Source: a virus
Strand: one strand, 5' to 3'
Virus record (IMG/VR): IMGVR_UViG_3300013132_000244
Location: 1-24,870 of that record
DNA length: 24,870 nt
In this document: positions 6,983-24,293 of the stretch, in pieces
Numbering within the stretch: position 1 is the stretch's first letter
How the letters are laid out: each line of letters begins with the position of its first letter
Position numbers and translations under genes: made by a program
The notes under the pieces: model-generated
Database searches by the model: none
What the model was told of the DNA's origin: nothing
Seen by the model: the letters and a program-made list of their open reading frames with translations, nothing else

Positions 6983-7019
6983 TCACGTCGACCAGTTCAC
7001 GGAGTCTCGATGTTCTGCG

Positions 7020-10120: not shown

Positions 10121-10150
10121 ATCCTACAGCCCAAAGGCCGGGAGTGCCAA
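10121..10150 (-). promoter_or_regulatory. Promoter TTGGCA-N18-TAGGAT overlapping the tRNA-Leu 3' end
   Basis: On the - strand the -10 is TAGGAT (10121-10126), 8 bases before the ATG at 10112. The best -35, TTGGCA at 10145-10150 with an 18-base spacer, is the 3' acceptor end of tRNA-Leu. Confidence 0.35.
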
Positions 10151-10228
10151 GGGAGGGACTCGAACCCTCACGCCCTCGCGGGCGCCAGCTCCTAAGGCTG
10201 GTGCGTCTGCCGATTCCGCCACCCCGGC
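10145..10228 (-). tRNA. tRNA-Leu (anticodon UAG)
   Basis: The 84-base - strand sequence forms a class II tRNA: acceptor GCCGGGG/CCTTGGC (two G-U pairs), anticodon stem CCAGC/GCTGG with loop CTTAGGA (anticodon TAG, reading CUA), a long variable arm built on GCCC-GCGA-GGGC, and T arm GAGGG-TTCGAGT-CCCTC. The discriminator is A and no CCA is encoded. It lies about 100 bases from the start of the low-complexity region. A TAGGAT at about 10238-10243 on the - strand could be its promoter -10. Confidence 0.93.
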
Positions 10229-11380: not shown

Positions 11381-11403
11381 CTGTGGTGCGCCCGAAACGA
11401 TAC

Positions 11404-11432
11404 TTGACTTGTCCTAGTTATGTCGCTAGTGT
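11404..11432 (+). promoter_or_regulatory. Promoter P1: TTGACT-N17-TAGTGT, leaderless
   Basis: A near-consensus -35 TTGACT (11404-11409), a 17-base spacer and -10 TAGTGT (11427-11432) end 7 bases before the ATG at 11440. P2 at 14499-14527 on the other strand shares CTTGACTTGTC and ATGTCGCTAGTGT with it. Confidence 0.75.
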
Positions 11433-11439
11433 GTGGTGT

Positions 11440-11682
11440 ATGAAAATAGTCCTACTCACCGAGAGCCTCAACCTTCGTGAGACCCTTCGCCTCGCTCGCC
11501 TCGCTGAGCGTCTGCCCGTTTCCCGTTTCCGTTTCGGTTCGCCGTGCCGTTTCGTTCGTGTTATTGACTTGACGGTTCACCTCGTTCTGCCCGAACTGTG
11601 TGAGCGTGTCGGTGCGTTGCGTGTCGCTCGCTACCTGCGTAGCACCTCGCCACGCTGGGGTCGCTCGTGGCGCAAGTGGTGA
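11440..11682 (+). CDS. Small gene embedded in the low-complexity region (80 aa, function unknown)
   Basis: Starting exactly where P1 predicts a leaderless mRNA, the frame encodes MKIVLLTESLNLRETLRLARLA, then a mixed segment with VRVIDLTVHLVLPELCERVG, ending in a basic tail (PRWGRSWRKW). Unlike its surroundings it uses all four bases and has an ordinary amino-acid composition. No family is recognised. It is basic and leucine/arginine-rich, with an amphipathic first helix; nucleic-acid or membrane binding are possible. Toward its 3' end the DNA grades into the same words (GTGTCGGTGCGTTGCGTGTC) as the flanking repeats, so the repeats may have grown from gene material like this. The open frame running in from the left is an artefact. 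Confidence 0.6.
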   Translation: MKIVLLTESLNLRETLRLARLAERLPVSRFRFGSPCRFVRVIDLTVHLVLPELCERVGALRVARYLRSTSPRWGRSWRKW

Positions 11683-11710
11683 GCAAGGTGCGTCGTGCGT
11701 TGCGCTCGCC

Positions 11711-11871
11711 GTTCGCCGTTGCGTAGGCGTTGCGTCTCTCGCCGTGTGCGTGTGTCGCCGTGTGCGTCTCTCGCCGTGTGCGTCTCTCGCCGTGCGTCTC
11801 TCGCCGTGTGCGTCTCTCGCCGTGCGTCTCTCGCCGTTCGCCGTTGCGTAGGCGTTGCGTCTCTCGCCGTG
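11711..11871. repeat. Direct repeat pair, 125 bases apart
   Basis: A segment of about 36 bases beginning GTTCGCCGTTGCGTAGGC occurs at 11711 and again at 11836. The intervening DNA is itself made of CGTGTGCGTCTCTCGC words. Confidence 0.7.
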
Positions 11872-12269
11872 CGCCGTGTGCGTGTGTCGCCGTGTCTCGC
11901 CGTGCGCCGTGCGTCTCTCGCCGTCGGCGTGTGGTGCGTCGTCGTCGTCGCCTGCGTTGAGTGGGCTGACGATATCGCTCGCCGTTGAGCGAGTGCGCTA
12001 GTGGTGCGTGTGCGCCACGATACGCCGTGCGTCGGTGAGCGTCGCCGTGCGCCGTGCGTGTCTCGCCGTGCGTCGCCGTGCGTTGCCGTGAGCGTCGCCG
12101 TGAGCGTCGCCGTGTGCGTGTCGCCCTGCGTTGCCGTGTGCGTGTCGCCCTGCGTGTCGCCGTGTCTCGCCGTGCGTTGCCGTGTGCGTGTCTCGCCGTG
12201 TGCGTGTCTCGCCCCGTGTCTCGCCGTGTGCGTGTCTCGCCCTGTGTCTCGCCGTGTGCGTGTCTCGCC

Positions 12270-12344
12270 CTGTGTCTCGCCGTGTGCGCTCGCCCTGTGT
12301 CTCGCCGTGTGCGCTCGCCCTGTGTCTCGCCGTGTGCGCTCGCC
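12270..12344. repeat. Minisatellite, 25-base unit, three copies
   Basis: Three exact copies (12270-12294, 12295-12319, 12320-12344) of a unit that begins CTGTGTCTCGCC and ends GCGCTCGCC. Partial copies flank them on the left. Confidence 0.8.
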
Positions 12345-13395
12345 CTGTGCGTGAGCGTCGCCTATGGGTGCGCTCGTCGCCGTGTGCGCTCGTCGCCGTG
12401 TGCGTGTGCCGTGCGTATCGGTGAGCGTGTCGCCGTGTGTCGCCCTGTGAGTGTGTCGCCGTGCGTTGCCGTGTCTCGCCGTGCGTCGGTGCGTGTCGGT
12501 GAGCGTGTCGCCGTGCGTCGTTCGCCGTCGTCGTTCGCCGTCGCCGTTCGCCGTGCGTCGTTCGCCGTGCGTCGTTCGCCGTGCGTCGGTGAGCGTCGCC
12601 CTGCGTGTCGCCGTGTGTCGTTCGCCGTCGCCGTGTGTCGGTGAGCGTCGGCGTGAGCGTCGGCGTGTGAGCATCACGGGTCGCCTATGGGTGCGCCTGC
12701 CGTGCGTAGGCGTGTCGGTGCGCCGTGCGTGTGCCGTGCGTGTCGGTGAGCGTGTGGGTGCGTCGGTGCGTATCGCCCTGCGTCGCCGTGCGCCGTGCGT
12801 ATGCGTCGGTGCGTGGGTGCGCCGTGCGTGGTGCGTATGCGTGGGTGCGCCGTGCGTGTGTCGGTGCGTGTCGGTGTCGGTGCGTGTCGGTGTCGGTGCG
12901 TCGCCGTGCGCTCGTCAGTGCGTCGCCGTGCGCTCGTCGGTGCGCCCTGCGTCGGTGCGCCGTTGCCGTGCGTGTGTCGTGCGTGTATCGGCTCGCCGTG
13001 CGTCGTGCCGTGCGTCGCCGTTGCCGTGTCGCCGTGCCTCTCGCCGTGTCGGTTCGTGCGCCGTGCGTGTCTCGTCGTCGTGCGTGTCGCCCGTCGTGCG
13101 TGGGGTTCACGGTGCGCCGTCGTGCGTGTCGCCCGTCGTGCCGTTCGCCCGTCGTGCCGTTCGCCCGTCGTGCGTGTCGGTGCGTTGCCGTATCCGTTGC
13201 CGTGAGCGTGTCGCCGTGAGCGTGTCGGTGCGTGAGCGTGTCGCCGTGAGTGCGTTCGTCGTGCGCCGTCGTGCGTAGTGCGCCGTCGTGCGTCGTGCCG
13301 TGCGCTCGTCGTGCGCCCTGCGCTCGCCGTGCGTCGTGCCGTGCGCTCGTCGTGCGCCGTGCGCTCGTCGGTCGTCGTGCGCCGTGCGTGAGCCT

Positions 13396-13410
13396 CACGG
13401 GTGGCACGGG
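13396..13410 (+). repeat. Paired CACGGG box 1
   Basis: CACGGG-TGG-CACGGG, flanked by GAGCCT on the left and GTCGCCCGTCG on the right. The second half can pair with the right flank (ACGGG-GTCG-CCCGT). It is one of the few places in the low-complexity block that contains adenine. Confidence 0.65.
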
Positions 13411-13585
13411 GTCGCCCGTCGTGCGTGTGCGTCGCCCGTCGTGCGTGTGCGTCGCCGTGTCGGTGCGTGTCGTATCGCCGTGCGCCTGCGTGTGTCGTCG
13501 TGCGTCGCCGTGTCGGTGCGCCTGCCGTGCGTCGTGCGTCGCCGTGAGTGCGCTCGCCGTCGTGTCGCCACGCCCTGCGCTCGCC

Positions 13586-13639
13586 GTTCGTCGGTGCGTC
13601 GCCGTTCGTCGGTGCGTCGCCGTTCGTCGGTGCGTCGCC
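13586..13639. repeat. Minisatellite, 18-base unit, three copies
   Basis: Three exact tandem copies of GTTCGTCGGTGCGTCGCC, followed by three shorter GTTCGTGCC-type units. Eighteen is a multiple of three, but no coding function is supported. Confidence 0.8.
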
Positions 13640-13748
13640 GTTCGTGCCGTTCGTGCCGTTCGTGTGTGTGCCGTGTGTCGGTTCGCCGTGTGCGTGTGCG
13701 TCGTCGTGCGTCGGTCGGTGTCGCCCGTCGTGCGCCGTGCGTGAGCCT

Positions 13749-13763
13749 CACGGGTGGCACGGG
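13749..13763 (+). repeat. Paired CACGGG box 2
   Basis: CACGGG-TGG-CACGGG with the same GAGCCT left flank as box 1, 353 bases further on. The right flank gives a CACGG-GGTCG-CCGTG hairpin. Confidence 0.65.
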
Positions 13764-14131
13764 GTCGCCGTGTGTCCGTCGTTGCGTCGGTGCGTCGTGC
13801 GTGTGTCCGTTCGCTCGCCGTGTCCGTTCGCCCGCCGTGTTGGTGCGCTCGCCGTGTCGGTGCGCTCGCCGTGTCGGTGCGCCGTCGGTGCGCTCGCCGT
13901 GTCGGTGCGCCGTCGGTGCGCTCGTGTGTCTCGCCCGTCGGTGCGCTCGTGTGTCTCGCCCGTCGGTGCGCCGTGCGCCCGTCGTGTCGTGCGTCGCCGT
14001 GTCGGTGCGCTCGCTCTCCCTGCGTGTGCGCCTCTCTGCGTCGCCCTGCCGTGTCGTGCGTGTGCGCCCGTCTTGTTGGTCGTGCGTCGCCGTCTGCCGT
14101 CGTGCCGTGCCTCTCGTCGCCCTGCGACCCT

Positions 14132-14146
14132 CACGGGCGACACGGG
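14132..14146 (+). repeat. Paired CACGGG box 3
   Basis: CACGGG-CGA-CACGGG, flanked by GACCCT and TGCGCCCGTCG. ACGGGCG can pair with CGCCCGT to its right. It lies at the right edge of the low-complexity block. Confidence 0.65.
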
Positions 14147-14178
14147 TGCGCCCGTCGTGTTCGTCGTCGGATACGACT

Positions 14179-14221
14179 GAGCCTCGCCACTCTGCGCTAG
14201 GTGCGCTCGGTGGCGAGGCTC
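14179..14221. terminator. Perfect 12-base inverted repeat, likely terminator
   Basis: GAGCCTCGCCAC (14179-14190) and its exact complement GTGGCGAGGCTC (14210-14221) enclose a 19-base loop that itself contains GCGC-TAGGT-GCGC. It begins 12 bases beyond the stop of the leftward gene at 14233. There is no U run, but the stem is strong. It also marks the right boundary of the low-complexity block. Confidence 0.6.
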
Positions 14222-14232
14222 GTCGTGCCGTG

Positions 14233-14451
14233 CTAGACGGTCATCAGGTGTCGCCCGTCAAGTTCCCAGACGCTCAGCCAAGTCGTTGCTATCAACTTCG
14301 CCTGCGCCTCGGTCTGGCAGGGGATAACGACTATGTGAGTGTCGCTACTGTCCCCCGTCGGACTGCTTATCCATATCTCAACGGTGTCGCCGTTGGTTAT
14401 CACCGTGCGAGGCGTTCCCTTCATCACGGTTATCGGTCGGTTCGTGTTCAT
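14233..14451 (-). CDS. Hypothetical protein (72 aa) under promoter P2
   Basis: The product (MNTNRPITVMKGTPRTVITNG, then DTVEIWISSP, DTHIVVIPCQTEAQAKLIATTWLSVW) has three likely strands followed by a helix, a compact alpha/beta protein of unknown family. The ATG at 14451 has a purine-rich GAAGGGGGTGAAG immediately upstream. A more upstream start at 14511 is rejected because it lies inside the P2 spacer. The predicted leader is about 40-45 bases. Base use is ordinary, unlike the neighbouring repeats. Confidence 0.7.
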   Translation of the reverse strand: MNTNRPITVMKGTPRTVITNGDTVEIWISSPTGDSSDTHIVVIPCQTEAQAKLIATTWLSVWELDGRHLMTV

Positions 14452-14498
14452 CTTCACCCCCTTCTCCCTTCTCTGGTGGGGTTCTCCCCACGAACGCA

Positions 14499-14527
14499 AC
14501 ACTAGCGACATTTGTGAGACAAGTCAA
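14499..14527 (-). promoter_or_regulatory. Promoter P2: TTGACT-N17-TAGTGT, facing left
   Basis: On the - strand, -35 TTGACT (14522-14527), a 17-base spacer and -10 TAGTGT (14499-14504). It matches P1 over CTTGACTTGTC and ATGTCGCTAGTGT. Upstream it shares the 17 bases GCGAGGGTGCTTGACTT with P3, in inverted orientation. Confidence 0.75.
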
Positions 14528-14586
14528 GCACCCTCGCACCCCCCCCCGAACGGTGCGCCTGCGCCTGCCGTGCCGTGCCGAGGGCT

Positions 14587-14601
14587 CACGGGTGGCACGG
14601 G
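14587..14601 (+). repeat. Paired CACGGG box 4
   Basis: CACGGG-TGG-CACGGG followed by GTCGCCCGTG, allowing a CACGGG-GTCG-CCCGTG hairpin that an outer GGGTGG/CCACCC pairing can extend. Confidence 0.65.
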
Positions 14602-14818
14602 GTCGCCCGTGTCGCCCACCCTCGCCCGTCGTGTCGGCTCGCTCGCCCTGCCTGGGGTGTGCGCTCGCCGTGCGTCGTCTGGTCGGTGCGTGGTGCGCCC
14701 CCCGTGCCCGTCGCCCGACGCTTTTACGCCCCCCCCCTTGTGGTCGCCCCCCTGTGGTCGCCCCCCTGTGGTCGCCTGCGACGAGCCTGAGACACGAACG
14801 CCCCTAGCCCGACCGAGC

Positions 14819-14833
14819 CACGGGTGGCACGGG
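14819..14833 (+). repeat. Paired CACGGG box 5, next to P3
   Basis: CACGGG-TGG-CACGGG ends 9 bases before the P3 -35. The left part also reads as GCCAC-GG-GTGGC, an inverted repeat. Its position suits an activator site. Confidence 0.65.
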
Positions 14834-14842
14834 CGAGGGTGC

Positions 14843-14871
14843 TTGACTTCCGACGGCGAACGCCCTATCGT
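14843..14871 (+). promoter_or_regulatory. Promoter P3: TTGACT-N17-TATCGT
   Basis: -35 TTGACT (14843-14848), a 17-base spacer and -10 TATCGT (14866-14871). A GGGGC-GAAC-GCCCC hairpin at about 14880-14893 lies in the short leader before the ribosome-binding site of the gene at 14911. Confidence 0.7.
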
Positions 14872-14910
14872 GAGGGTGTGGGGCGAACGCCCCGAGAAGG
14901 GGAGACAGAT

Positions 14911-15270
14911 ATGAGGCAGTCATCAGCGTCAGGGAGGGAACGCACGACGGTCGTGCCGTTCGGCGTGTCGTTGCGCCGTGCGCTCGTCGTGGGCGCACTC
15001 GCCGTCGTGGCGTGGGGGGCGCACGACCTGCTCGGTGCGAGCCCGTCGTTCGTGTGCGACGCCACGCCCGTCGTCGCCGAGGAGGGCGACACGCTCTGGG
15101 CGATCGCCGAGGCGAGGTGCGACGGCGACATACGGCTTGCGACCGACGAGGCATACCGTGCCTTCGGCTCGCTGTCGGTGGGCGAGTTGGTGGCTATGCC
15201 CGAGCGTGAGGGCTGTCGCTTGGTCTTGGTCGGTGCGCCGGCGCCCGAGCCGAGGCAGGACTGCCGATGA
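14911..15270 (+). CDS. Membrane-anchored LysM-like protein (119 aa)
   Basis: A basic N-terminus is followed by one hydrophobic segment (about 24-42, ALVVGALAVVAWGAHDLLG) and then a LysM-like domain: VVAEEGDTLWAIAEARCDGD, then LSVGELVAMPE. LysM modules bind peptidoglycan or chitin; this one would face the cell wall. Three cysteines outside the membrane may form a disulfide. The ATG follows AAGGGGAGA by about 7 bases, and P3 lies 40 bases upstream. Its stop overlaps the next start (ATGA). Possible roles are wall attachment, superinfection exclusion or lysis control; none is shown. Confidence 0.7.
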   Translation: MRQSSASGRERTTVVPFGVSLRRALVVGALAVVAWGAHDLLGASPSFVCDATPVVAEEGDTLWAIAEARCDGDIRLATDEAYRAFGSLSVGELVAMPEREGCRLVLVGAPAPEPRQDCR

Positions 15271-15506
15271 GGGCACGAGCGAGGTCGCTGACCCTCACGG
15301 GTGCCACGGGCGTGATGTTCGTCGCCCACTCGCTGTGGGTCGTCGTCGGCGCCGTGATGTCCGTGGTCGGCTCGCTGTCGTGGCTCACCTACTTCGGCGT
15401 CGGCTTGCTGTCGTGGCTCGCCCTTCGGGGTGCGCTGTCGCTCGCCGAGAGGGCGCTGTCGGAATACATCGGCACGATCGTCGGCGACCGAGCCGAGTGG
15501 GACTAG
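15267..15506 (+). CDS. Small two-helix membrane protein (79 aa)
   Basis: The ATG overlaps the previous stop (ATGA), so the gene is coupled to the LysM-like gene. After a basic start (MRARARSLTLTGATG) come two hydrophobic segments, about residues 15-37 and 40-58, then a charged helix (LAERALSEYIG) and an acidic end. Holin-like topology is possible, and the pairing with a wall-binding partner is suggestive, but no family is recognised. Box 6 lies inside the first codons, encoding LTGATG. Confidence 0.65.
   Translation: MRARARSLTLTGATGVMFVAHSLWVVVGAVMSVVGSLSWLTYFGVGLLSWLALRGALSLAERALSEYIGTIVGDRAEWD
15296..15310 (+). repeat. Paired CACGGG box 6, within a coding region
   Basis: CACGGG-TGC-CACGGG with the GACCCT left flank also seen at box 3. 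It lies about ten codons into the gene at 15267. Confidence 0.55.
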
Positions 15507-15542
15507 GGGCGCACCACGGGCGCCACGGGCTCGCCCCTGCGA
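15507..15542. terminator. Bidirectional hairpin containing paired CACGGG box 7
   Basis: The 36 bases between convergent stops form GGGGCG...CGCCCC around CACGGG-CGC-CACGGG (15515-15529). Position and stem fit a shared terminator; no T run is seen. Confidence 0.5.
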
Positions 15543-16196
15543 TCAGTCGCCGTCCGAGCCCCCCACGAAACTCTTGGTCTCGAACCCGCGCTCCACCATC
15601 GCTATCGTCAGGGCGTCGTAGAACAGAACGCCCATACCGTCCCTGGGCGCATCCCACCCCACGGGGAGTGCGAGAGCTTTGGCGAAGAGCAGGGGATACA
15701 TCCCCTCGTGCCCGACCACGCGCTGGCGGCCTGGGACGAAGTTCTCCTCGTCCCACACGAGCGCCTTCGGCACGGCGTAGCTGTAGGGCTTCGTGACGAA
15801 CGAGACCTCCTCCCCGACGACATGGGTCACGGTGATCGCCTCCTTGATGTGGGCGTTGCCCCTGGCGAACTCGTTCGCGAAGTCCCTCCCCTTCGTCTCG
15901 AGCGGCTCGTCGGAGACGTACCCCTCGGCGACCATCGTTATCTCGTCGGCGCCCCAGCCCTGCCGGAGTATGGCCGCGGCCTCGGAGACGGCGAGGAACC
16001 TGACGTCGGGCGGCATCCGCGCCATGGCGTCGGTCATTCTCGTCACCGCGGCCAGCCGGTCGGAGCGCCAGCCGTAGAGCACCTGGTTCATGTCCTCGCC
16101 TATGCCGAACTCCTTGACGCCCTTGCTCTTGGTCTCGACGGCGGCACCGAGCACGAGCGCCAGCTTCATCATCCGACCCTCGTAAAAGACGTCCAT
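15543..16196 (-). CDS. Hypothetical protein (217 aa)
   Basis: I do not recognise this protein. It starts MDVFYEGRMMKLALVLGAAVE, contains VTRMTDAMARMPPDVRFLAV followed by SEAAAILRQGWGADEITMVAEGYVS, and ends with VLFYDALTIAMVERGFETKS. It looks like a soluble alpha/beta protein with no signal peptide, which would fit an enzyme or a phage accessory factor. The ATG has no Shine-Dalgarno; TACCAT lies 6 bases upstream. Paired CACGGG box 8 covers the expected -35 region, hinting at regulation. Confidence 0.65.
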   Translation of the reverse strand: MDVFYEGRMMKLALVLGAAVETKSKGVKEFGIGEDMNQVLYGWRSDRLAAVTRMTDAMARMPPDVRFLAVSEAAAILRQGWGADEITMVAEGYVSDEPLETKGRDFANEFARGNAHIKEAITVTHVVGEEVSFVTKPYSYAVPKALVWDEENFVPGRQRVVGHEGMYPLLFAKALALPVGWDAPRDGMGVLFYDALTIAMVERGFETKSFVGGSDGD

Positions 16197-16202
16197 GCCC
16201 CA

Positions 16203-16208
16203 ATGGTA
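16203..16208 (-). promoter_or_regulatory. -10 element of a leaderless promoter (TACCAT)
   Basis: On the - strand TACCAT is followed by six bases and the ATG at 16196. The expected -35 position (16226-16231) is occupied by a CACGGG of box 8. Confidence 0.45.
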
Positions 16209-16215
16209 AATAAGC

Positions 16216-16231
16216 CACGGGTGCCCACGGG
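16216..16231 (+). repeat. Paired CACGGG box 8, between divergent genes
   Basis: CACGGG-TGCC-CACGGG, with a 4-base rather than 3-base gap. It lies between the divergent starts at 16196 (-) and 16278 (+). Confidence 0.55.
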
Positions 16232-16264
16232 GAAGGGGTTCCCCTACGGCGACCCCGGGTTGAC

Positions 16265-16270
16265 TAGCGT
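16265..16270 (+). promoter_or_regulatory. -10 element of a leaderless promoter (TAGCGT)
   Basis: TAGCGT is followed by seven bases and the ATG at 16278. No good -35 is seen. Confidence 0.4.
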
Positions 16271-16277
16271 GTTCGCC

Positions 16278-16466
16278 ATGGCACAGAAAAAGAAAACAAC
16301 CAAGAAATCAACCAGCGCAAAGAAGCCAGCCGTTAGCGCGGCTCCGAAGGCGACGCCCAAGGTGGAAGCACCGAAGCCCGTCTCCATTCCGAGCACGCCG
16401 CCACCGGCACCGGTCTTGACGCCGAAGAAGAAGAAGAACTTCCTCAGGCGCCTGCTCGGCTTCTAA
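16278..16466 (+). CDS. Lys/Ala/Pro-rich histone-tail-like small protein (62 aa)
   Basis: The product is a lysine-rich N-terminus (MAQKKKTTKKSTSAKKPAV), a Pro/Ala/Val linker with several PxP units, and a basic hydrophobic end (KKKKNFLRRLLGF). It lacks a folded core and resembles histone H1-like tails, or a cationic peptide with an amphipathic C-terminal helix. DNA binding or membrane association are both possible. The start is supported by a -10 seven bases upstream. It ends 6 bases before the stop of a convergent gene. Confidence 0.6.
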   Translation: MAQKKKTTKKSTSAKKPAVSAAPKATPKVEAPKPVSIPSTPPPAPVLTPKKKKNFLRRLLGF

Positions 16467-16472
16467 CCTCGC

Positions 16473-16799
16473 CTAGCGAGGAAACGCCCTGTAGGCCGTG
16501 CGCAGTATCCGCACGCCCTCGCTCGAGATGCGGTAGCAGTACGAGTCGCCACGGGCGGACATCGGCAACCTCCTCATCGCCGAGAAGCTCGCCGGGCTCT
16601 TGACGAGAACGCCCGCCGTCGTCAGGCGGTCAAGGGCGTCCCTCGCCTCGCTCACGCTCCCGAACCCCGCGTCCATGGCGCACAACTGGTATGCAAAGGT
16701 CGGCACCTCCGCCCGCCTCGACAGGATGAACAGCGACGCGACAAGCAGCCTGCGGTCGCCCGCCACCGCGTCCGCGCCTGCGCACCCCGTCGCGATCAA
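16473..16799 (-). CDS. Winged-helix-like hypothetical protein (108 aa)
   Basis: The product contains a helix with RRLLVASLFILSRRAEVPTF, a second helix SEARDALDRLTTAGVLVKSP, and a beta-wing-like YCYRISSEGVRILRTAYRAF, an order reminiscent of PadR/MarR-type winged helices. Assignment is tentative. The start is taken as the TTG at 16799, overlapping the previous stop (TTGA); a GTG further in is an alternative. Sequence upstream of 16799 in this frame is a shadow of the neighbouring gene. It is the last gene of a three-gene leftward operon beginning at 17325. Confidence 0.5.
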   Translation of the reverse strand: MIATGCAGADAVAGDRRLLVASLFILSRRAEVPTFAYQLCAMDAGFGSVSEARDALDRLTTAGVLVKSPASFSAMRRLPMSARGDSYCYRISSEGVRILRTAYRAFPR

Positions 16800-17068
16800 G
16801 CCTGCTCCGCCCCGCCCCCGTCCGTATCGGGCTCGGCGGTTCGGTTGCCCTTGCCCAGCAGGTCGCTCATCGTCGCGTTCAACTGCTCCAGCAGGGCGTT
16901 CGTCTTCTCCATGAGCTGCTCCACGCTCGTCAGCAGGACGATCGTCTGGACGGCGAGGTTGCCCTGGTCCTCGTACTGGGAGCGGAGGTCCCGGGTCACC
17001 TTCCTGTAGAGGCGGTCCTGGCGCCACGGGTCGTTCTTGTCGAACGGTTCGTCGACGTAGCCCGCCAT
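16796..17068 (-). CDS. Hypothetical protein with coiled-coil-like helix (90 aa)
   Basis: The charged N-terminus (MAGYVDEPFDKNDPWRQDRLY) leads to a long helix with a heptad pattern (LAVQTIVLLTSVEQLMEKTN, continuing ALLEQLNATMSDLL), likely oligomeric, and a disordered Gly/Glu/Asp end. No family is recognised. Its ATG overlaps the previous stop by one base (TGATG). Confidence 0.6.
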   Translation of the reverse strand: MAGYVDEPFDKNDPWRQDRLYRKVTRDLRSQYEDQGNLAVQTIVLLTSVEQLMEKTNALLEQLNATMSDLLGKGNRTAEPDTDGGGAEQA

Positions 17069-17325
17069 CAGGACGACGCCATCCCCGCGAGCTCCCTCGC
17101 CAGAATGCGGTCGAACGAGACCTGGAGCTGGGCGTGCCAGCGGGCGGCGTCCATCATCAGCGCCTGCATGACGACGAGCTCGGGGGGCAAGCTCGTCGGG
17201 ATCGCCGCGACGGGCGACTGGTTGCGGAACAGGCACGGCTCGGACAGCGCCATCAGCTTGACGAGCATGCCCGGTTGCACGTTCATCGGCTTGGCCGAGA
17301 CGGGGGACGCCTTGGTTTCGGTCAT
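17068..17325 (-). CDS. Hypothetical protein (85 aa)
   Basis: First gene of a tightly overlapping leftward trio. The product has a flexible N-terminus, a proline-containing middle (SPVAAIPTSLPPELV) and a helical C-terminus (MMDAARWHAQLQVSFDRILA). Not recognised; small phage proteins like this often act as host-takeover or virion accessory factors. Its ATG has one of the best promoters in the window, with the -10 six bases upstream and no Shine-Dalgarno. Confidence 0.6.
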   Translation of the reverse strand: MTETKASPVSAKPMNVQPGMLVKLMALSEPCLFRNQSPVAAIPTSLPPELVVMQALMMDAARWHAQLQVSFDRILARELAGMASS

Positions 17326-17331
17326 GCCGGC

Positions 17332-17360
17332 ATCCTAGGTGCCCGCGGGCTCGCAGTCAA
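17332..17360 (-). promoter_or_regulatory. Promoter TTGACT-N17-TAGGAT, leaderless
   Basis: On the - strand, -35 TTGACT (17355-17360), a 17-base spacer and -10 TAGGAT (17332-17337), 6 bases before the ATG at 17325. It begins 3 bases past the stop of the primase-helicase gene. Confidence 0.75.
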
Positions 17361-17363
17361 CAC

Positions 17364-19154
17364 CTAGAACTGCTCATCTTCGCGGAACGCATTCTCCCTC
17401 GGCGCCTTCACGGGCGCGGCCTCGGAGATCTCGAACGGGAACATCTTGCCCCGCCTCAGCTTCAGCGGCCACTGCCTCTCGTCCCTCGCGCCACGGAAGT
17501 GGCGAAGCTCGTAGGTGTAGCCGTCGGCCGACAGGGGGTCGGGGGTGAGCGATATGCCGAACTCGGGCCAGCGAGACCAAACGGCCGACCCGAACGGCCT
17601 CAGCTCGCGTGTCGCCATGTTCGTGCCGAGCGGGGCATGGTGCTCGAGCCACAGGGCGCAACCGTAGGCGTCCTTGACGGAGTCAAGGAACTTGGCGACC
17701 TCCACGGCCACGGACTCGGAGTTGCGACCGCCCGGGTCCACGTACGACTTGTAGAGCGGGCCGAACATGATCAGCTGGGGCTTCACGGCCTCGATGTGGC
17801 GGAACAGGTAGGAGCGGTCGTCCTCCCTGAGGAGGTCTATGCCCGACGGCTTCAGCAGGAGCGAGCCGTCCAGCGGGCGGGCCTTCTGGCCGAAGTCCCT
17901 CTCCACCCTGAGCTTGGCCCTCATGTAGGTGTGCCTGCTCATGCGACGGATGATGCGGTCGGGGTTCTCCAGGTCCACGAACAGGGTCCTCACGGGCGGC
18001 ATCGGCTGGAACGAGAACGGGTGTATGCCGAACGAGGACAGTATGGCGATCTGGCGGGCGAGCATGGTCTTGCCGACGCCCTCGGCGGCGACGATGATTA
18101 CCCGCTCCTTGCGCTCGAGTATGTCGGGGATGACCCAGTCGTAGCTCCCGTCGTCCTCCTCGGACATGAAGGCGTCCCACTGCACGAGACGGCCGGTGTC
18201 GATGCGCTCGCTGATGTAGGCGCCACCGAGGAGCGCCTGCGCCCTCGCCAGCTTCGTCGCCTCCTTCGCGGACCTGTCGGTCAGGACCTCGCCGATCTTC
18301 ATGGCGAGCTCCTCCATCGGGGTCACGACCTGCTCCAATTCCTCACGGGTGAGAGGGGCGACGTCCACGAGGTCGCTGAGCTTGAACCCCGCCTCGACGT
18401 GGTCGGTGACGTCCTTGTGGTTGGGCGCCCGAACGAGCGACACCTCGCAACCGTGCTCCCTCAGCGCCGCGAACACATCCGACGCGTACGAGATGCCCGC
18501 CTCGTCGTTGTCGGCGACGATCTCCACGATCCCGCCAGCGAGCCACTCGCTGAACTGCGGCTCCCACTTCCCCGACCCCGCACCCGACGGGCCCGTCGTG
18601 GCGACGAAACCGAGCGAGGTGAGCGTGTCGGCGTCCTTCTCGCCCTCCACGACGTACACGGGCTCGCCGTCGCCCACCGCCTTCAGCACGGCGGGCAGGT
18701 TGTAGAGGACCTTGCGCACGCCGTCCAGCGAGTAGACGTAGTCGCCGGGGACGTTGGGGTCCGGCCGCCTCTGCAGGAACGTCTTCTTGCCGTCCTCGGT
18801 GACGTAGCGGAGCTTCTCGTAGGCGAACTCGCCGTTCTCGTCGTAGTACTTGTAGATCTTCACGAGCTTCTTGCTCTTGGGCTTCTTCGGCTTCTTCTCG
18901 CGGGCGAAGTCCCCGGTCTTCTGGTCGGCGAAGAGCTCCGACGGCTTCATGCCCACGGAGGCGCAGATCTGCTCGAAGTCGCAACCGTTGCCCCTGTGGC
19001 AGTACACGCCGACGTTGCCGTTCTCGTCCCTCACGGACAGGGACGGGTTCTTGTCGTCGTTCCGGCACGGGCACCTCGCCATCCAGCGGTTGGGCCCGTT
19101 GGCCCTCACCCCGTCCAGCTTGGACAGGAATCGGTAGGCGGTCTCCGACGTCAT
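17364..19154 (-). CDS. Primase-helicase: CHC2-like zinc finger, TOPRIM and RecA-like ATPase
   Basis: The 596-residue product combines replication modules in order. A zinc finger at about 23-62 has CPC, then DDKNPSLSV, then YCHRGNGC (likely ligands C28, C30, C52, C58; the usual His is replaced by Cys). A TOPRIM domain at about 165-260 has VVEGEKDADTL (E170) and VADNDEAG (D215/D217), the metal-binding acids of primer synthesis. A RecA/RepA-like ATPase from about 340 has Walker A EGVGKT (about 358-363), TLFVDLENP as a Walker B-like strand and a conserved HH (WLEHHAPLG). It probably primes and unwinds phage DNA. The ATG at 19154 overlaps the WhiB stop (ATGA); longer versions are rejected because they run through the WhiB gene. 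The gene lies at the end of the leftward early operon. Confidence 0.87.
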   Translation of the reverse strand: MTSETAYRFLSKLDGVRANGPNRWMARCPCRNDDKNPSLSVRDENGNVGVYCHRGNGCDFEQICASVGMKPSELFADQKTGDFAREKKPKKPKSKKLVKIYKYYDENGEFAYEKLRYVTEDGKKTFLQRRPDPNVPGDYVYSLDGVRKVLYNLPAVLKAVGDGEPVYVVEGEKDADTLTSLGFVATTGPSGAGSGKWEPQFSEWLAGGIVEIVADNDEAGISYASDVFAALREHGCEVSLVRAPNHKDVTDHVEAGFKLSDLVDVAPLTREELEQVVTPMEELAMKIGEVLTDRSAKEATKLARAQALLGGAYISERIDTGRLVQWDAFMSEEDDGSYDWVIPDILERKERVIIVAAEGVGKTMLARQIAILSSFGIHPFSFQPMPPVRTLFVDLENPDRIIRRMSRHTYMRAKLRVERDFGQKARPLDGSLLLKPSGIDLLREDDRSYLFRHIEAVKPQLIMFGPLYKSYVDPGGRNSESVAVEVAKFLDSVKDAYGCALWLEHHAPLGTNMATRELRPFGSAVWSRWPEFGISLTPDPLSADGYTYELRHFRGARDERQWPLKLRRGKMFPFEISEAAPVKAPRENAFREDEQF

Positions 19155-19486
19155 TCGTAGCCCGTGCGGGCGACGGATATCTTGAGCTTCGACCTGATCG
19201 ACTTGCGGGCGTACTCGGTCGTGCCGCCCCAGATGCCGAATTGCTCCCACTCAAGGCCGTACATCAGGCACTCCAGTTGCACGGGGCATTTGTGGCATAT
19301 CGCCATCGCCACCGAGCTCGGCGAATCGTCGCGGGTGTCGTTGTACTTCAGGCTGTACCACAACTCGGTCGGATGCCCGACGCACGCGCCGCCCTTCGGC
19401 GGGCTCGGCACGCCGTGCGCCCCTCCCCTGCCGAATCTCGCCGCCGTCGGCGGCCTTCTGCCTAGAGTTCCTTTGTCCACGGGCAT
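19151..19486 (-). CDS. WhiB-family iron-sulfur transcription factor
   Basis: WhiB proteins carry an oxygen- and NO-sensitive [4Fe-4S] cluster and act with the primary sigma factor. All signature parts are present: C35 in GACVGHPTELWY, C64-x2-C67-x5-C73 in ICHKCPVQLEC, then the GIWGG turn (84-88) and a basic C-terminus (RKSIRSKLK). Phage copies such as TM4 WhiBTM4 interfere with host WhiB control and can affect superinfection. The ATG at 19486 has AGGAGG about 10 bases upstream; a TTG at 19510 is a less likely start. The stop overlaps the primase-helicase start, an unusual coupling of a regulator to replication. Confidence 0.9.
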   Translation of the reverse strand: MPVDKGTLGRRPPTAARFGRGGAHGVPSPPKGGACVGHPTELWYSLKYNDTRDDSPSSVAMAICHKCPVQLECLMYGLEWEQFGIWGGTTEYARKSIRSKLKISVARTGYE

Positions 19487-19522
19487 CGTTCGAATCCCTC
19501 CTTCGCGCAAGAAGGGTATCGT

Positions 19523-20038
19523 CTACATCAGGCGCAAGTCAATCCTTTTCCACGCCTCGTAGGCGAGCCTGCGGAGCGTCTTCCTCCTGCCGTCCACGGG
19601 CATGCGGAACGCCTCGTCGACGATGTCCCTCCTCCTGCGCAGGCAGGCGTAGGTGACCTCGAGGATCATCTCGTTCCAGGCGTCGGTGTTGCGGGCCATC
19701 AGCCAGGTCTTCGGGTCGTAGACGCCGTGCTTGGAGAACGCGTAGTCCTCTATGTCGGCCCTCGTGGTCACGATCTCCATGTGCCAGCCGACGTTCCTCT
19801 CGATAGCGAACACCAGGTCCATCACTCCGCTCTCGCCACGGGCGTCCTTGATCGCCTTGACGGCCTCGCCGAAGCGCCCCTCGGCGATCATCGCGCAGTG
19901 CGCGTCTATCTCGTCGAGTCTGTCCTTGAGCATCTCGTCGTTCTCGCTCTCGGCGATCTCCCTCATGATCTCGTAGTCCTCGAAAAATTCGGGCATCTCG
20001 TCCTCCCCCAGACCATCCTGCCAGTCCTCGTTCTCCAT
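19523..20038 (-). CDS. Hypothetical acidic protein (171 aa)
   Basis: The first 40 residues are very acidic (EDWQDGLGEDEMPEFFEDYE). The rest is helical, with ARGESGVMDLVFAIERNVGW, EIVTTRADIEDYAF and a basic C-terminal half (CLRRRRDIVDEAFRMPVDGR). No family is recognised. The ATG overlaps the upstream DUF932 stop by one base (TGATG), so translation is coupled. Extended frames upstream are shadows of the DUF932 gene. Confidence 0.65.
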   Translation of the reverse strand: MENEDWQDGLGEDEMPEFFEDYEIMREIAESENDEMLKDRLDEIDAHCAMIAEGRFGEAVKAIKDARGESGVMDLVFAIERNVGWHMEIVTTRADIEDYAFSKHGVYDPKTWLMARNTDAWNEMILEVTYACLRRRRDIVDEAFRMPVDGRRKTLRRLAYEAWKRIDLRLM

Positions 20039-21057
20039 CAGGAACCTAGCAGAACTTTCTGCACGGAGAGCTTCTTCTTCGTCGTCAGGGAACTCTCGTC
20101 CATGCTCGCTATGGCGAGCTCCTCGTTGCTCGTGTGGCGGTAGTGATCTAGGTACTCGCAGGCGGCGTTGTAGACCGACCACGCGTTGTGGCCGAAGGCG
20201 CCCGAGTTCCGGTCCGACAGGTACACCTTCGCCAGCAGGTTCCAGACCGACTCCCTGAACTCCCGCTCCCTCCCCGACTCGCCCGCTTTCTTCGGCTGGA
20301 CGATGTTGAGTATCTTCTCGTTGATCGTCCGCGAGGTGTTGGACACGGAGGCGAGGAACTCCACGGAGCGCCTGACCTCCTCCTTCCATTTCACGGATAT
20401 GCCGAGGACCTCACGGGCGTCCTGAATGATCGAGTCCACGTTGCGGGTGTGCCTCGCCGTGAAGACCCTTCTCGCCTCCTGCTCGCCGAGGATTATGGTG
20501 TTGTTGCACACGGCCCTCACCTCGGTGTTGGCGTAACGGATGGGCCAGACCCCGTCGTGGCCCGTGGATATGACGAGGTACCTCGCGAGTTTGTCGTTGA
20601 CATCGGAGCAGGCGATGTCCAGGACCCCGAGGTCTATCGTGGCGAAGAAACGCGACCCGCCCTTGAGGACTCCGCAGGTGTCAATCGCGGCGTTGCCGTC
20701 CGAAGCGTTGACGACCGCCAACGCCCGCTCGAGGACCTCCTTGTTCTGGCGGACCTCGTACCTGGTTCCAACGGTAGCCAGCGGGTCGAAGCTCCCGTCG
20801 TCGTTCTGCCTCATCGTGGCCCTGCCGTCGGGAATGATGATCGCCGTGCCATCGGAGTTCCTGATCAGCTCGCCCGAGTCGTCAACGGCGGCGACCTTGG
20901 TCAGCACGACGTCGTAGTCGGCGTGCGACGCGACGAGCATCTCTTCGAGCGTGCCGAGCCCCCTCACGGGCGTGCCGAGACGGTGCCACGGGATCTGACG
21001 GTCGTTGTAGGCGAAGCGGGTCCAGCCCGTCTTCGTCCTCTCCAAACCGTGAGCCAT
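20038..21057 (-). CDS. DUF932 (phage/plasmid-like, TIGR03299-type) protein
   Basis: The 339-residue product matches the DUF932 family found widely in phages and plasmids: an N-terminal WTRFAYNDRQIPWHRLGTPV, then a region with VGTRYEVRQNKEVLE, then LKGGSRFFATIDL, YLVISTGHDG and VCNNTIILGEQEARR, and a helical C-terminus ending in a basic TTKKKLSVQKVLL. Function is unproven; members often sit near replication or recombination genes, as here. The ATG at 21057 has GGAGGTGA at optimal distance and is chosen over a GTG three codons upstream that overlaps that site. It heads the leftward operon that includes WhiB and primase-helicase. Confidence 0.85.
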   Translation of the reverse strand: MAHGLERTKTGWTRFAYNDRQIPWHRLGTPVRGLGTLEEMLVASHADYDVVLTKVAAVDDSGELIRNSDGTAIIIPDGRATMRQNDDGSFDPLATVGTRYEVRQNKEVLERALAVVNASDGNAAIDTCGVLKGGSRFFATIDLGVLDIACSDVNDKLARYLVISTGHDGVWPIRYANTEVRAVCNNTIILGEQEARRVFTARHTRNVDSIIQDAREVLGISVKWKEEVRRSVEFLASVSNTSRTINEKILNIVQPKKAGESGREREFRESVWNLLAKVYLSDRNSGAFGHNAWSVYNAACEYLDHYRHTSNEELAIASMDESSLTTKKKLSVQKVLLGS

Positions 21058-21078
21058 TTTGTTCACCTCCGTGGTTTA

Positions 21079-21091
21079 ATTATCCCACAAA
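21079..21091 (-). promoter_or_regulatory. Extended -10 promoter, TTTGTGGGATAAT
   Basis: Read on the - strand, the same 13 bases as at 5007-5019 end about 21 bases before the ATG at 21057. It gives a short leader with a strong Shine-Dalgarno, unlike the leaderless promoters nearby. Confidence 0.55.
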
Positions 21092-21137
21092 AACAAGACT
21101 AATAAACTCGCGGTTAATCACGGGAAAGCGATAGGGC

Positions 21138-21166
21138 TTGAAAACCGCCACGGGGATGCGTAGTCT
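21138..21166 (+). promoter_or_regulatory. Promoter TTGAAA-N17-TAGTCT with CACGGG in the spacer, leaderless
   Basis: -35 TTGAAA (21138-21143), a 17-base spacer containing CACGGG at 21149-21154, and -10 TAGTCT (21161-21166), 6 bases before the ATG at 21173. A second CACGGG stands at about 21119. Confidence 0.7.
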
Positions 21167-21172
21167 TCGACC

Positions 21173-21925
21173 ATGGACATTGATGAAGAATCCAACCTCA
21201 GCGAACAGGAGCTGCTCGTCCATCAGTCACGAGGGTACTGCGAAGGCATGATGGCCATGAAGAAGTTCTCCGTGCTCGCCGAGAAAGGACCGGTCGACAT
21301 CCCCTCGTTCCTGGTGGTTCGCTACGGGGCGAAATCGGGGAGCGCGGCGCACGAGCAAGTAAGATCGGGCGAGCGAGACGGAATCGTGCTCGACCAGCAC
21401 GACGGGTACGTTCTCTGCGAAGCGATGATCAACCTCAGCGAGTACGGGGACGAGAACTCGGCTCCGGGCAAACACGTCTACAGGGCGCTGTCCGACTTCC
21501 AGGCGGACACGGGGGACGCCGAGATCTGGACGGTTGGTCTCGTGGCCGACGGGGTCGTTTGCAAGAACCCCGAGGATCCAGAGTGGACCAAGTTCATAGA
21601 GACTCCCGAGAACGCAAGCCGCAGCTACCACGAGCTGTTCTGCGACGAGCCCTTGGCGCAACAATTCCTCAGCGAGTGCATAGGCATCTTCCTGATGTCG
21701 GTCACGGGCGAGATGGCCTCCGCGAACGTCGGCTACGTCTACGGGGACAAAACCTTCCCACCGGAGCTGATCTTCGAAGAACTCGAGGCGCGGTCGGATG
21801 GAAGCGTCTTCGACAAGGACAGGGACTGGCTGGAGAATCAGCGAGTCGCCACCCATGTGGTGCTGTTTTTCGCCGAGATGGAGTCCAACGCCGCCCGGGC
21901 GGGCGACAACGCAATCCCTGAGTGA
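21173..21925 (+). CDS. Hypothetical acidic protein (250 aa)
   Basis: The product is soluble and acidic, starting MDIDEESNLSEQELLVHQSR and containing SFLVVRYGAKSGSAAHEQVR, DAEIWTVGLVADGVVCKNPE and FLSECIGIFLMSVTGEMASA. I do not recognise the family. It is the first gene right of the divergent early promoters and stands alone before the next promoter at 21960, a position where phages often place host-takeover genes. The start is fixed by its promoter, six bases upstream, with no Shine-Dalgarno. Confidence 0.7.
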   Translation: MDIDEESNLSEQELLVHQSRGYCEGMMAMKKFSVLAEKGPVDIPSFLVVRYGAKSGSAAHEQVRSGERDGIVLDQHDGYVLCEAMINLSEYGDENSAPGKHVYRALSDFQADTGDAEIWTVGLVADGVVCKNPEDPEWTKFIETPENASRSYHELFCDEPLAQQFLSECIGIFLMSVTGEMASANVGYVYGDKTFPPELIFEELEARSDGSVFDKDRDWLENQRVATHVVLFFAEMESNAARAGDNAIPE

Positions 21926-21959
21926 CCGACGCCACTTTCAGAAAATCTTTGCTTAGGGG

Positions 21960-21988
21960 TTGCAATCATCACGGGCAACCCATAGTGT
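21960..21988 (+). promoter_or_regulatory. Promoter TTGCAA-N17-TAGTGT with TCACGGGC in the spacer
   Basis: -35 TTGCAA (21960-21965), a 17-base spacer holding CACGGG at 21970-21975, and -10 TAGTGT (21983-21988). The leader to the ATG at 22064 is about 70 bases and ends in a purine-rich AACGAGAAAG ribosome-binding region. Confidence 0.7.
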
Positions 21989-22063
21989 TTCAGACAAGCA
22001 ATAGAGAAGCACAAATCTCAATTAGCGAATTAGACAACAACTACTAACGAAACGAGAAAGCAA

Positions 22064-22930
22064 ATGAACACCAAGTCGACCACCGAGGACATCGAAGTCA
22101 GCGTGCAGACGATCACCCCCGAAGACGCAAAGGTCCTGTTGCAGACGAACGTCAACAACCGGAACCTGAGCCGACGCCGGGTGATCATGTACGCCAACGA
22201 CATCAAGCGCGGCATGTGGAAGCTCACGGGCGACAGCATCAAGCTCGCCAAGAACCCGAAGACCAACGAGGTCCGCCTGATCGACGGCCAGCACCGCCTG
22301 CACGCCATCGTGGAGGCCGGCGTCCCCGTCCAAACCGTGGTGGCCACGGGTCTCGATGAGGACGCCTTCTCGGTGATTGACCGGGGCAAGACGAGGACCT
22401 ACAACGACGTGCTCGGCATGAGCAGGATCAAGAACGCCAACACGGTCGCCTCCGTGATCAGGCCAGTGATCGTCCTCGAGGCGGGCATGAGCCCCTACGG
22501 CAGGGGCATCGACCTGGTGACACCCGAGGACGTCGTGCGGTACGCGACGGAGAACGAGGAGATGGTCCAGTGGGCCGTCAACCGCTCCTTCAAGATGCGC
22601 GAGCACCTCTCGGGGTCGGGCACGGCGTGGGCCATATTCCTCTACCTGCTCGCGAGGAAGCACGGGGTCAAGTGCTCCGAGGCGTTCAGCAACAGCCTGC
22701 TCTCGGGCGTTGGCTACGGGGTCGGCGACGCTCGCGCGGCGCTGCGAAACTGGATCCTCCGCAACTTTGCGAAGTACAGGGGCACCTCGCGCGGAGCGTA
22801 CGACCAGTGCGCCATCATGATCAAGACCTACAACTACACGGTCTCCAACACGAAGGTGGCCCAGCTGCGCATGACCGAGGTCGGCGGCGACAACTGGCCG
22901 GAAATCAGCGACAAGAAGTTCGCCGAGTAG
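22064..22930 (+). CDS. ParB/Srx-fold (ParB-like nuclease domain) phage protein
   Basis: The 288-residue product carries the hallmark LIDGQHRLHAIVEAGVPVQ (about 72-90) of the ParB/Srx fold, preceded by NRNLSRRRVIMYANDIKRGM and WKLTGDSIKLAKN, the usual phage layout. The D-G-Q-H-R-L motif corresponds to the nucleotide-handling site of the fold. The C-terminal half is helical, probably a DNA- or partner-binding part. In phages these proteins are often annotated as ParB-like nucleases without proof of partitioning; a role in replication or as a CTP/ATP-dependent factor is inferred. It leads a four-gene rightward operon. Confidence 0.85.
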   Translation: MNTKSTTEDIEVSVQTITPEDAKVLLQTNVNNRNLSRRRVIMYANDIKRGMWKLTGDSIKLAKNPKTNEVRLIDGQHRLHAIVEAGVPVQTVVATGLDEDAFSVIDRGKTRTYNDVLGMSRIKNANTVASVIRPVIVLEAGMSPYGRGIDLVTPEDVVRYATENEEMVQWAVNRSFKMREHLSGSGTAWAIFLYLLARKHGVKCSEAFSNSLLSGVGYGVGDARAALRNWILRNFAKYRGTSRGAYDQCAIMIKTYNYTVSNTKVAQLRMTEVGGDNWPEISDKKFAE

Positions 22931-22962
22931 ACTGGTCCCTGACCGATCAGACAGGACGGGTG

Positions 22963-23181
22963 ATGGACGAAACGAAAGACGAAGCCGAGGCCCCGAGGAC
23001 CGACGCGGGCGAGCGGGCGCACCTGGCGTCGCTGTGCGCGACGGTGTTGGACCTCACGGAGCAAGGCTTCACGATCGACGGCGAGACCCTCGCGGAAATC
23101 CGCAAGGCGGTCAACATCCCCCGGTGGATCGGCGATGTGCGGGACAACCCCTCGCTCATCGGGCTCCACGTGTGTAAATGA
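22963..23181 (+). CDS. Hypothetical protein (72 aa)
   Basis: The product has a charged N-terminus (MDETKDEAEAPRTDAGERAH), a helix (LASLCATVLDLTEQG) and the segment ETLAEIRKAVNIPRWIG. No family is recognised. The ATG follows AGGACGGG by a few bases. It is 32 bases after the ParB-like gene, and its stop overlaps the next start (ATGA). Confidence 0.6.
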   Translation: MDETKDEAEAPRTDAGERAHLASLCATVLDLTEQGFTIDGETLAEIRKAVNIPRWIGDVRDNPSLIGLHVCK

Positions 23182-23393
23182 CCATGAGGGCAGGAAGCAT
23201 TCGCGAAAACATCGCCTTCCGCCTGCTCTCGTCACGGCTCGCCTTGAGGCGGGCCAGGCGCAAGCTCGTCATCAGCGCCAAGTACGGCGCCATCGTCCGT
23301 CACGAGGTCACCATTCGTTTCATCGGGCTGCTGGCGTTCCTCGTGATCATCGGGATATGCGCCATCGTCGCCACGGGGAGGACGTGGCGATGA
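23178..23393 (+). CDS. Small single-pass membrane protein (71 aa)
   Basis: A strongly basic N-terminal half (LSSRLALRRARRKLVISAKYG) is followed by one membrane segment near the C-terminus (about 48-65, FIGLLAFLVIIGICAIVA) and a short basic tail. Its start overlaps the previous stop, and its stop overlaps the next start (both ATGA). Function unknown. Confidence 0.6.
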   Translation: MTMRAGSIRENIAFRLLSSRLALRRARRKLVISAKYGAIVRHEVTIRFIGLLAFLVIIGICAIVATGRTWR

Positions 23394-23803
23394 ACGAGCT
23401 CCAACTGAGGGTCGAAGCCCTCAGGTCGAAGCTTCCCCCGGACAGGCCCTACATAGAGGTGGACGAGGGTTGGTACGGGTTGGTCGCCGACTGCGACGCT
23501 GAGTTGACGGCCATGGACGCTAATTACCAATTGCTCCAGGTCAAGGAGAAGTTCGGCGGTCTGCGCTACTACTTCATCCCGTCGCAGGATGTCGCGGACG
23601 AACAGCGCAACGCCATGTACGAAGTGGTGGCCAAGTACGAGAAGATCGCCTCGCGAACGTGCGAGGCCACGGGCGGGCCCGGCGTTCTGATGAAATCGGC
23701 GCGGGGCCGCCTGAAGACGCTCAACCCCGAGTACGCGGCGGGCACGGCACATCTCGGGTCCTACGTGCCCGTTGAGAACAAATGGGTAAGGTTGGGGCAA
23801 TGA
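23390..23803 (+). CDS. Conserved phage protein with KEKFGGLRYY motif (137 aa)
   Basis: The signature VKEKFGGLRYYFIPS, preceded by GWYGLVADCDAELTAMDANY, marks a family found in many phages and bacteria whose function I do not know. Related proteins, as I recall them, carry a C-x2-C near the C-terminal end; here the segment reads TCEATGGPGVLM, so one cysteine is lost and the metal site is probably absent. The start overlaps the upstream stop (ATGA). It is the last gene of the operon beginning at 22064. Confidence 0.7.
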   Translation: MNELQLRVEALRSKLPPDRPYIEVDEGWYGLVADCDAELTAMDANYQLLQVKEKFGGLRYYFIPSQDVADEQRNAMYEVVAKYEKIASRTCEATGGPGVLMKSARGRLKTLNPEYAAGTAHLGSYVPVENKWVRLGQ

Positions 23804-23864
23804 AGGGCTCGTGGGTAGCAACCGCACGGAGAGGCGACTAACCGTGCGCAAAGCGAGGACGTTC

Positions 23865-23870
23865 TAAAAT
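23865..23870 (+). promoter_or_regulatory. -10 element of a leaderless promoter (TAAAAT)
   Basis: TAAAAT is followed by six bases and the ATG at 23877. The -35 is weak. Confidence 0.5.
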
Positions 23871-23876
23871 CTACGC

Positions 23877-24293
23877 ATGGCCAAGCGTAAGCGAAAGTTC
23901 ACGTACGCATTCAGCAAGGCGCAACTCCAGTTGACGATCGAAGCCCTTCTCTTGGCGCGAAGCGGCGGGGCGCACTGCGAGGTTCTCCTCATCGAGGAAT
24001 CAGGGGTCGAGCACAAGTTCGAGGGGATCTCGGACGACGGGCAAATCGACACTCTGGTGGACAAGCTCGAGGCGAGCAACACGGGCTACGAGATCAAGCT
24101 GAGCCCCACGGGCAGAATGTACACCCGCACCGAGGACAAGACGATAGAGCGCACGATCAACGCCCTCAACAACTCGCTGGGCGAGATAGAGGAGGCCGAG
24201 ACCGAGGAGCTGGACAAGATGGCCGCCGAGGCGGTCCCTCAGGTGATCGAGGACATCTACAGGTTCCTGAGCGACGAGCCGAAACCGGGCTGA
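23877..24293 (+). CDS. Hypothetical protein (138 aa)
   Basis: A basic start (MAKRKRKFTYAFSKAQLQLT) is followed by an alpha/beta region (AHCEVLLIEESGVEHKFEG) and an acidic helical C-terminus (INALNNSLGEIEEAETEELD). No family is recognised. The start is fixed by a -10 element six bases upstream. The next gene begins 7 bases after its stop. Confidence 0.65.
   Translation: MAKRKRKFTYAFSKAQLQLTIEALLLARSGGAHCEVLLIEESGVEHKFEGISDDGQIDTLVDKLEASNTGYEIKLSPTGRMYTRTEDKTIERTINALNNSLGEIEEAETEELDKMAAEAVPQVIEDIYRFLSDEPKPG

Follow-up and report, generated by a model that had tools for sequence, protein, structure and literature searches.

A strand-polar array of CCCGTR sites confined to one genome region in actinobacteriophages

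Background

Strand-polar sequence motifs have been known in phages for decades. Among directional DNA words, the translocase-orienting sequences KOPS and SRS cover whole replichores and flip at dif, and the stoperators of cluster A mycobacteriophages are 13 bp long, mostly intergenic and aligned with transcription. The nearest phenomenological match to the array described here is provided by the nick-associated motifs of the T5, phiKMV and tf/Rembedalsseter types (TACTRTGMC, WACTRTGAC). In tf and Rembedalsseter, these motifs lie on one strand and on one side of the genome, occur in genes of both directions and are kept in distant relatives (PMC3517423, PMC11780129); the function of nick-tied phage motifs is still unknown (PMC11780129). 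The Chi words of lambdoid phages are concentrated near the origin or cos/pac (PMC3784561).

The DNA analysed here (the window) is an entire IMG/VR record of 24,870 bp (24.9 kb), itself a fragment, and it carries a polar array that is denser than these motifs, evenly spaced and limited to one arm. Like the nick-associated motifs, the array is nearly one-stranded irrespective of gene direction (39/4 in the window; 45/3 in G3, a distantly related contig), is concentrated on one genome side and is conserved among distant relatives. Unlike them, it has a different and shorter core, with about 45 copies in 11-21 kb compared with 13-14 sites per genome, and it is evenly spaced with doublets, even spacing not being among the known traits of the nick motifs. 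With Chi of the RecBCD/AddAB type, including phage Chi, it shares a short, asymmetric, polar word that is over-represented (about 7x the low-order expectation), but it is confined to one arm and is common to phages of very different GC. Short polar words are also the point of likeness to KOPS/SRS, from which the array differs in forming one region of one polarity, without the genome-wide polarity and switch point (13/20 outside the array in G3). Cluster A stoperators are likewise directional, dispersed actinophage sites, but the core here is short, mostly intragenic and indifferent to transcription. An earlier note on this DNA had drawn analogies to stoperators, Chi/KOPS-like sequences and packaging signals. 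The first is not supported, as the polarity is the same over - and + genes and most sites are intragenic; of the second, a polar DNA signal remains a reasonable description, but a KOPS-like genome-wide switch is absent in G3.

A one-stranded array in the window

Judged by its proteins, the window is a piece of an uncultured actinobacteriophage. This placement rests on a primase/helicase related to those of Arthrobacter phages (about 32%), an RNase E-like protein, a class II RNR and a DUF932 protein, with WhiB additionally encoded by one distant relative; a scan of genome contigs for a host gave no actinobacterial match. Two close IMG/VR relatives were found, G1 (97.9 kb, 87% primase identity) and G2 (52.1 kb). 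The window also encodes tRNA-Met(cat) at 7019-7092 and tRNA-Leu(tag) at 10144-10228.

The earlier note had described a directional, dispersed, region-limited CACGGG motif from approximate counts, and this description stands, the motif also being kept in relatives. Exact recounting gives 39 copies on the + strand and 4 on the - strand in 14,132-24,112 (sign test p = 3e-8), in agreement with the counts reported for 14.1 to 24.2 kb, and 4 (+) and 6 (-) in 1-10 kb, where about 3 and 6 had been seen; the whole window holds 49 (+) and 12 (-). First- and second-order Markov models predict about 4-6 copies per strand, so that the + strand is about sevenfold above expectation and the - strand at expectation. 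Ranked by strand asymmetry among all hexamers of the region, CACGGG comes first in the window, first in G1 (45/7) and second in G2 (16/2). Of the hexamers one mismatch away, only TACGGG (14/4) is polar in the same sense to a comparable degree.

Pooled sites, including those of distant phages, place the motif on the - strand with the best form YRCCCGTRR and the core CCCGTR. The context T/C-CACGGG-C-G proposed previously is the same motif read from the other side, but it represents only one GC-rich form of the wider CCCGTR. The true start of the array is at 13,396, within a run of 9-bp doublets (Table 1). Genes run on the - strand from about 14.8 to 21.07 kb and on the + strand from 21.17 to 24.8 kb, and 23 array sites fall in the approximately 8.1 kb of coding sequence. 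Most sites are thus intragenic; some are intergenic (16216, 21119-21149, 21970). The doublets were also considered as a gene-junction motif with GTG starts, an idea that was dropped as the ORFs concerned lie in low-complexity filler.

Table 1. Array, doublets and neighbouring features of the window
Feature	Position	Strand	Remarks
Low-complexity filler	10330..14200	-	2.8% T on the motif (-) strand, A-poor on +
Polar array	13396..24112	-	43 CACGGG on + (= CCCGTG on -); CCCGTR 48 on - vs 4 opposite
Doublet CCCGTGCCACCCGTG	13396..13410	-	two CCCGTG, 9 bp apart; conserved in relative
Doublet CCCGTGCCACCCGTG	13749..13763	-	
Doublet CCCGTGTCGCCCGTG	14132..14146	-	
Doublet CCCGTGCCACCCGTG	14587..14601	-	
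Doublet CCCGTGCCACCCGTG	14819..14833	-	conserved in relative
Doublet CCCGTGGCACCCGTG	15296..15310	-	
Doublet CCCGTGGCGCCCGTG	15515..15529	-	conserved in relative
Conserved 217-aa protein, function unassigned	15543..16196	-	inside array
Doublet, 10-bp step	16216..16231	-	upstream of gene starting at 16196; conserved in relative
Primase/helicase (Toprim_2 + AAA_25)	17364..19155	-	inside array; start refined by alignment with relatives
Acidic 172-aa protein adjoining DUF932	19523..20041	-	family also in large relatives without clear array
DUF932 protein (phrog_1221)	20038..21066	-	inside array
phrog_5931 protein, weak ParB-like similarity	22064..22930	+	motif on antisense strand there

Composition and codon use

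Synonymous-codon shuffles of the window genes, pooled, predict 3.2 sites in the - genes, where 14 are seen, and 2.4 in the + genes, where 9 are seen, with similar results in G1; the word is thus in excess in both gene sets, which bears out the claimed independence of gene direction. Opposite-sense sites in the window array are not clearly depleted (2 observed versus 2.5 expected in - genes, 0 versus 1.0 in + genes). Being near expectation, they point to sites gained on one strand, not to sites avoided on the other. The G3 array likewise holds 19 sites versus 2.4 expected in + genes and 10 versus 1.9 in - genes, and G3 genes outside the array show no excess of the motif over the shuffles. Codon or dinucleotide bias, checked by Markov expectations for CACGGG and by the shuffles, does not account for the pattern, and the asymmetry is not lost at genome scale, with CCCGTR at 45/3 in 9.7-30.8 kb of G3. 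As a separate observation, coding-sense YACGGG is depleted relative to shuffles past 33 kb in G3, outside the array (8 versus 20.3; 3 versus 11.2), possibly through a codon-pair effect.

Conservation and spacing in close relatives

Conservation in relatives, a check that the earlier note had put forward, is clear: the array is kept at the homologous position in G1 (98 kb) and G2 (52 kb). Between the window and G1, 30 of the 43 sites are conserved, compared with 144 of 393 (37%) other hexamers of the same composition (Fisher p = 5e-5), and none of the four opposite-orientation sites is. With doublets merged, the gaps in the window average 345 bp with a CV of 0.43 versus 0.85 for random placement (p < 5e-5); the values for G1 (346 bp, CV 0.45, p < 5e-5) are not independent, as G1 is kin of the window. 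Hardly any gap between sites exceeds 700 bp. Evenness is not significant in G2, and among distant relatives it is significant in G5 only (CV 0.50, p = 0.003).

The array in distant relatives

Searching with a primase profile gave 80 loci. The distant phages compared show 50-55% primase identity and a GC content of 45-55%. Many primase loci with an adjoining DUF932 gene show the same polarity, with both CCCGTA and CCCGTG in 45% GC genomes; the array is common to phages only about 50% identical in protein. Two of the long contigs compared are G3 (174 kb) and G9 (172.5 kb). Within 9.7-30.8 kb of G3, CCCGTR stands at 45/3, versus an unbiased 13/20 in the remainder of the contig; CCCGTY is not enriched, and a scan of the whole contig for all NNNNN+R words places this word second of 1015. 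The switch point in polarity for which a search had been suggested does not appear, as G3 has no counter-polar arm outside the array. As regards a possible packaging signal, the third analogy of the earlier note, the G3 terminase gene lies at 97 kb, far from the array. In G9, the array occupies 115-134 kb and has doublets of its own at 11-12 bp.

Three further relatives, G10, G11 and G12, have no clear array although their genes are much the same, and the array is therefore not essential to the group. Cultured relatives available for comparison are distant ones only (terminase 43%, primase 32%), and in the four actinophage regions sampled CCCGTR forms no comparable array; their strongest 10-kb bin, in a Mycobacterium phage, is 14/4.

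Polarity in rearranged genes

Relatives in which genes have been rearranged offer a natural experiment, which suggests a signal that goes with the DNA axis and makes its reader and purpose testable. The block with the RNase E-like gene has the word at 11/0 inside the G3 array versus 1/2 in the window, where it lies outside the array, and the SSB-methylase-SNF2 block has 7/2 inside the G3 array versus 1/3 where the homologues lie outside, in a comparison that spans G3 and the window or G1, genomes that differ in GC too. In G9, the genes for the SNF2 helicase, DUF932 and the primase lie the other way round from G3, with the flanking blocks (RNR, capsid, WhiB block) and the motif polarity unchanged. 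Within the SNF2 helicase gene, the count is 1 sense and 3 antisense in G3 versus 7/1 in G9, and within the DUF932 gene 14/2 in five genomes versus 1/2 in G9; these per-gene counts are small, and each comparison by itself is no more than suggestive (Fisher p 0.07 and 0.10). The - genes of G9 hold 8 sites versus 3.3 expected from synonymous shuffles (p 0.015). Taken jointly, the inversions and the G9 shuffle support, on small counts, a polarity that goes with the genome axis instead of the genes.

Filler and noncoding DNA at the array ends

At its 3' end in the window and G1, the array lies in low-complexity, mostly gene-free DNA, kilobases long and almost without T on the motif strand, with doublets at intervals of about 350-450 bp. 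In the window, this filler bears the first doublets (13.4-14.15 kb) and is elsewhere nearly without the motif; it is common to G1 (L014:1-4200) and as such missing from G2. At the opposite (5') end, G1 and G3 have apparently noncoding DNA that carries AGTCCCG elements on the strand of the motif. In G1, about 15 kb between 16 and 31 kb (L014:16000-20000, L015:1-11000) look noncoding, with 25 AGTCCCG on the - strand and 0 on the +. A tRNA array was rejected as the source of these repeats, as ARAGORN and Rfam find none there. In G3, 3.7 kb at L115:8800-12600 are apparently noncoding and hold about 17 TAGTCCCG elements, all on the + strand and about 110-450 bp apart.

What might read the word

In sum, the word is enriched within a single region and almost only on one strand, distant relatives retain it, and it depends on neither codon choice nor gene direction. 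As the same pattern is kept in those relatives, it is very probably a genuine directional DNA signal, and its action at the level of DNA is well supported. On balance, we think it probable that the array belongs to a class of axis-tied polar signals read by a phage DNA-processing protein. The word YRCCCGTRR, on the minus strand at steps of about 350 bp over the arm with the replication genes in a large actinobacteriophage, would be read directionally on the DNA by a phage-encoded protein. One strand may then be processed at each site, much as T5, phiKMV and tf-type phages have single-strand interruptions at specific sites, and such strand-specific processing would be made during passage of the fork or the packaging machine. 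That the reader is encoded by the phage is suggested, indirectly, by the same core being kept in phages of 45-64% GC, which probably have different hosts. The acidic protein next to DUF932 and DUF932 itself were considered as candidate readers and set aside, both families also occurring in genomes without a clear array. Within the axis-tied class, a nick-type mechanism, argued from the parallels above, is the leading single candidate but less than probable. The fuller proposal is of a previously undescribed phage-encoded, axis-tied polar signal system, in which 40-50 fairly even YRCCCGTRR sites would single out one replication arm for directional processing of the DNA, with gene-free, doublet-bearing filler lengthening the array by kilobases in some phages; we offer it tentatively, as plausible but short of probable.

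The main rival to nick-type processing is Chi-like protection, with lagging-strand priming and protein binding following. Under the Chi-like alternative, which we consider unlikely, a host end-resection helicase-nuclease of the AdnAB, RecBCD or AddAB type would read the word, and the arm around the replication origin or DNA end would be protected or channelled into recombination. No actinobacterial Chi is known to us. In general, a Chi word is short, exact, asymmetric and enriched, and the doublets and gene-free filler at the array 3' end would suit an enzyme coming from that side, but no DNA end is known at the array 3' end in G3, and the alternative does not predict even spacing. Lambdoid phages without RecBCD inhibitors are Chi-enriched, with the words concentrated near the origin and cos/pac (PMC3784561), and Chi words vary by lineage, that of L. 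lactis being GC-rich (PMC8022716); the core here, however, goes with the phage group and is unchanged over its GC range of 45-64%, and the handling of a Chi-like step by AdnAB is unclear (PMC13309787).

Less likely again, the sites could be lagging-strand starts at which the phage primase primes at CCCGTR (primer pppACGGG), the motif strand being the lagging-strand template and the fork leaving an origin at the array 5' end. Even spacing with hardly a long gap, the primase gene in or near the array and the noncoding repeat regions at the array 5' end in G1 and G3 would fit such starts. The primers of T4 and T7 likewise begin with pppAC, opposite 5'-GT-3', and the window filler is nearly T-free on the motif strand, so that a start opposite T would there mostly have to fall in the motif. 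T is not lacking, however, from the G3 filler or from the right filler of G1; known phage primase sites are 3-5 nt long and need no enrichment, the remainder of the genome is without an array, and related primases occur in genomes without a clear one.

About equally improbable is a reading of the sites as stoperator- or iteron-like targets of a phage regulator, nucleoid protein or partition protein, with the paired copies in the filler set about one helical turn apart. Such binding agrees with the doublets at 9-12 bp seen in the window, G1 and G9, with a flank preference beyond the core (YR...RR) and with the intergenic position of some sites, but most sites are intragenic with an orientation that ignores transcription, and strict polarity across 11-21 kb is unexpected for a plain operator. 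Very improbable indeed is a by-product of composition or codon use, or of one-orientation restriction-site retention as for the type III sites of T7: the filler is compositionally extreme, but shuffles and low-order Markov models predict several-fold fewer sites than are seen, whichever way the genes run, the excess is gone outside the array, and the orientation bias is a gain on one strand, the kept orientation being far in excess and the opposite at expectation without clear depletion.

Other features of the relatives

A tmRNA gene with the tag ANKQFALAA is present in G1 (L016:11441-11821). Giant ORFs occur in G1 (4972 aa, 59894-74812, L016-L017) and G3 (5345 aa, 50217-66254, L117-L118). At 98-110 kb of G9 (L135-L136), a repeated intergenic TAGTAG...ATATCAGATTTACAAA resembles a repeated promoter of minus-strand genes.
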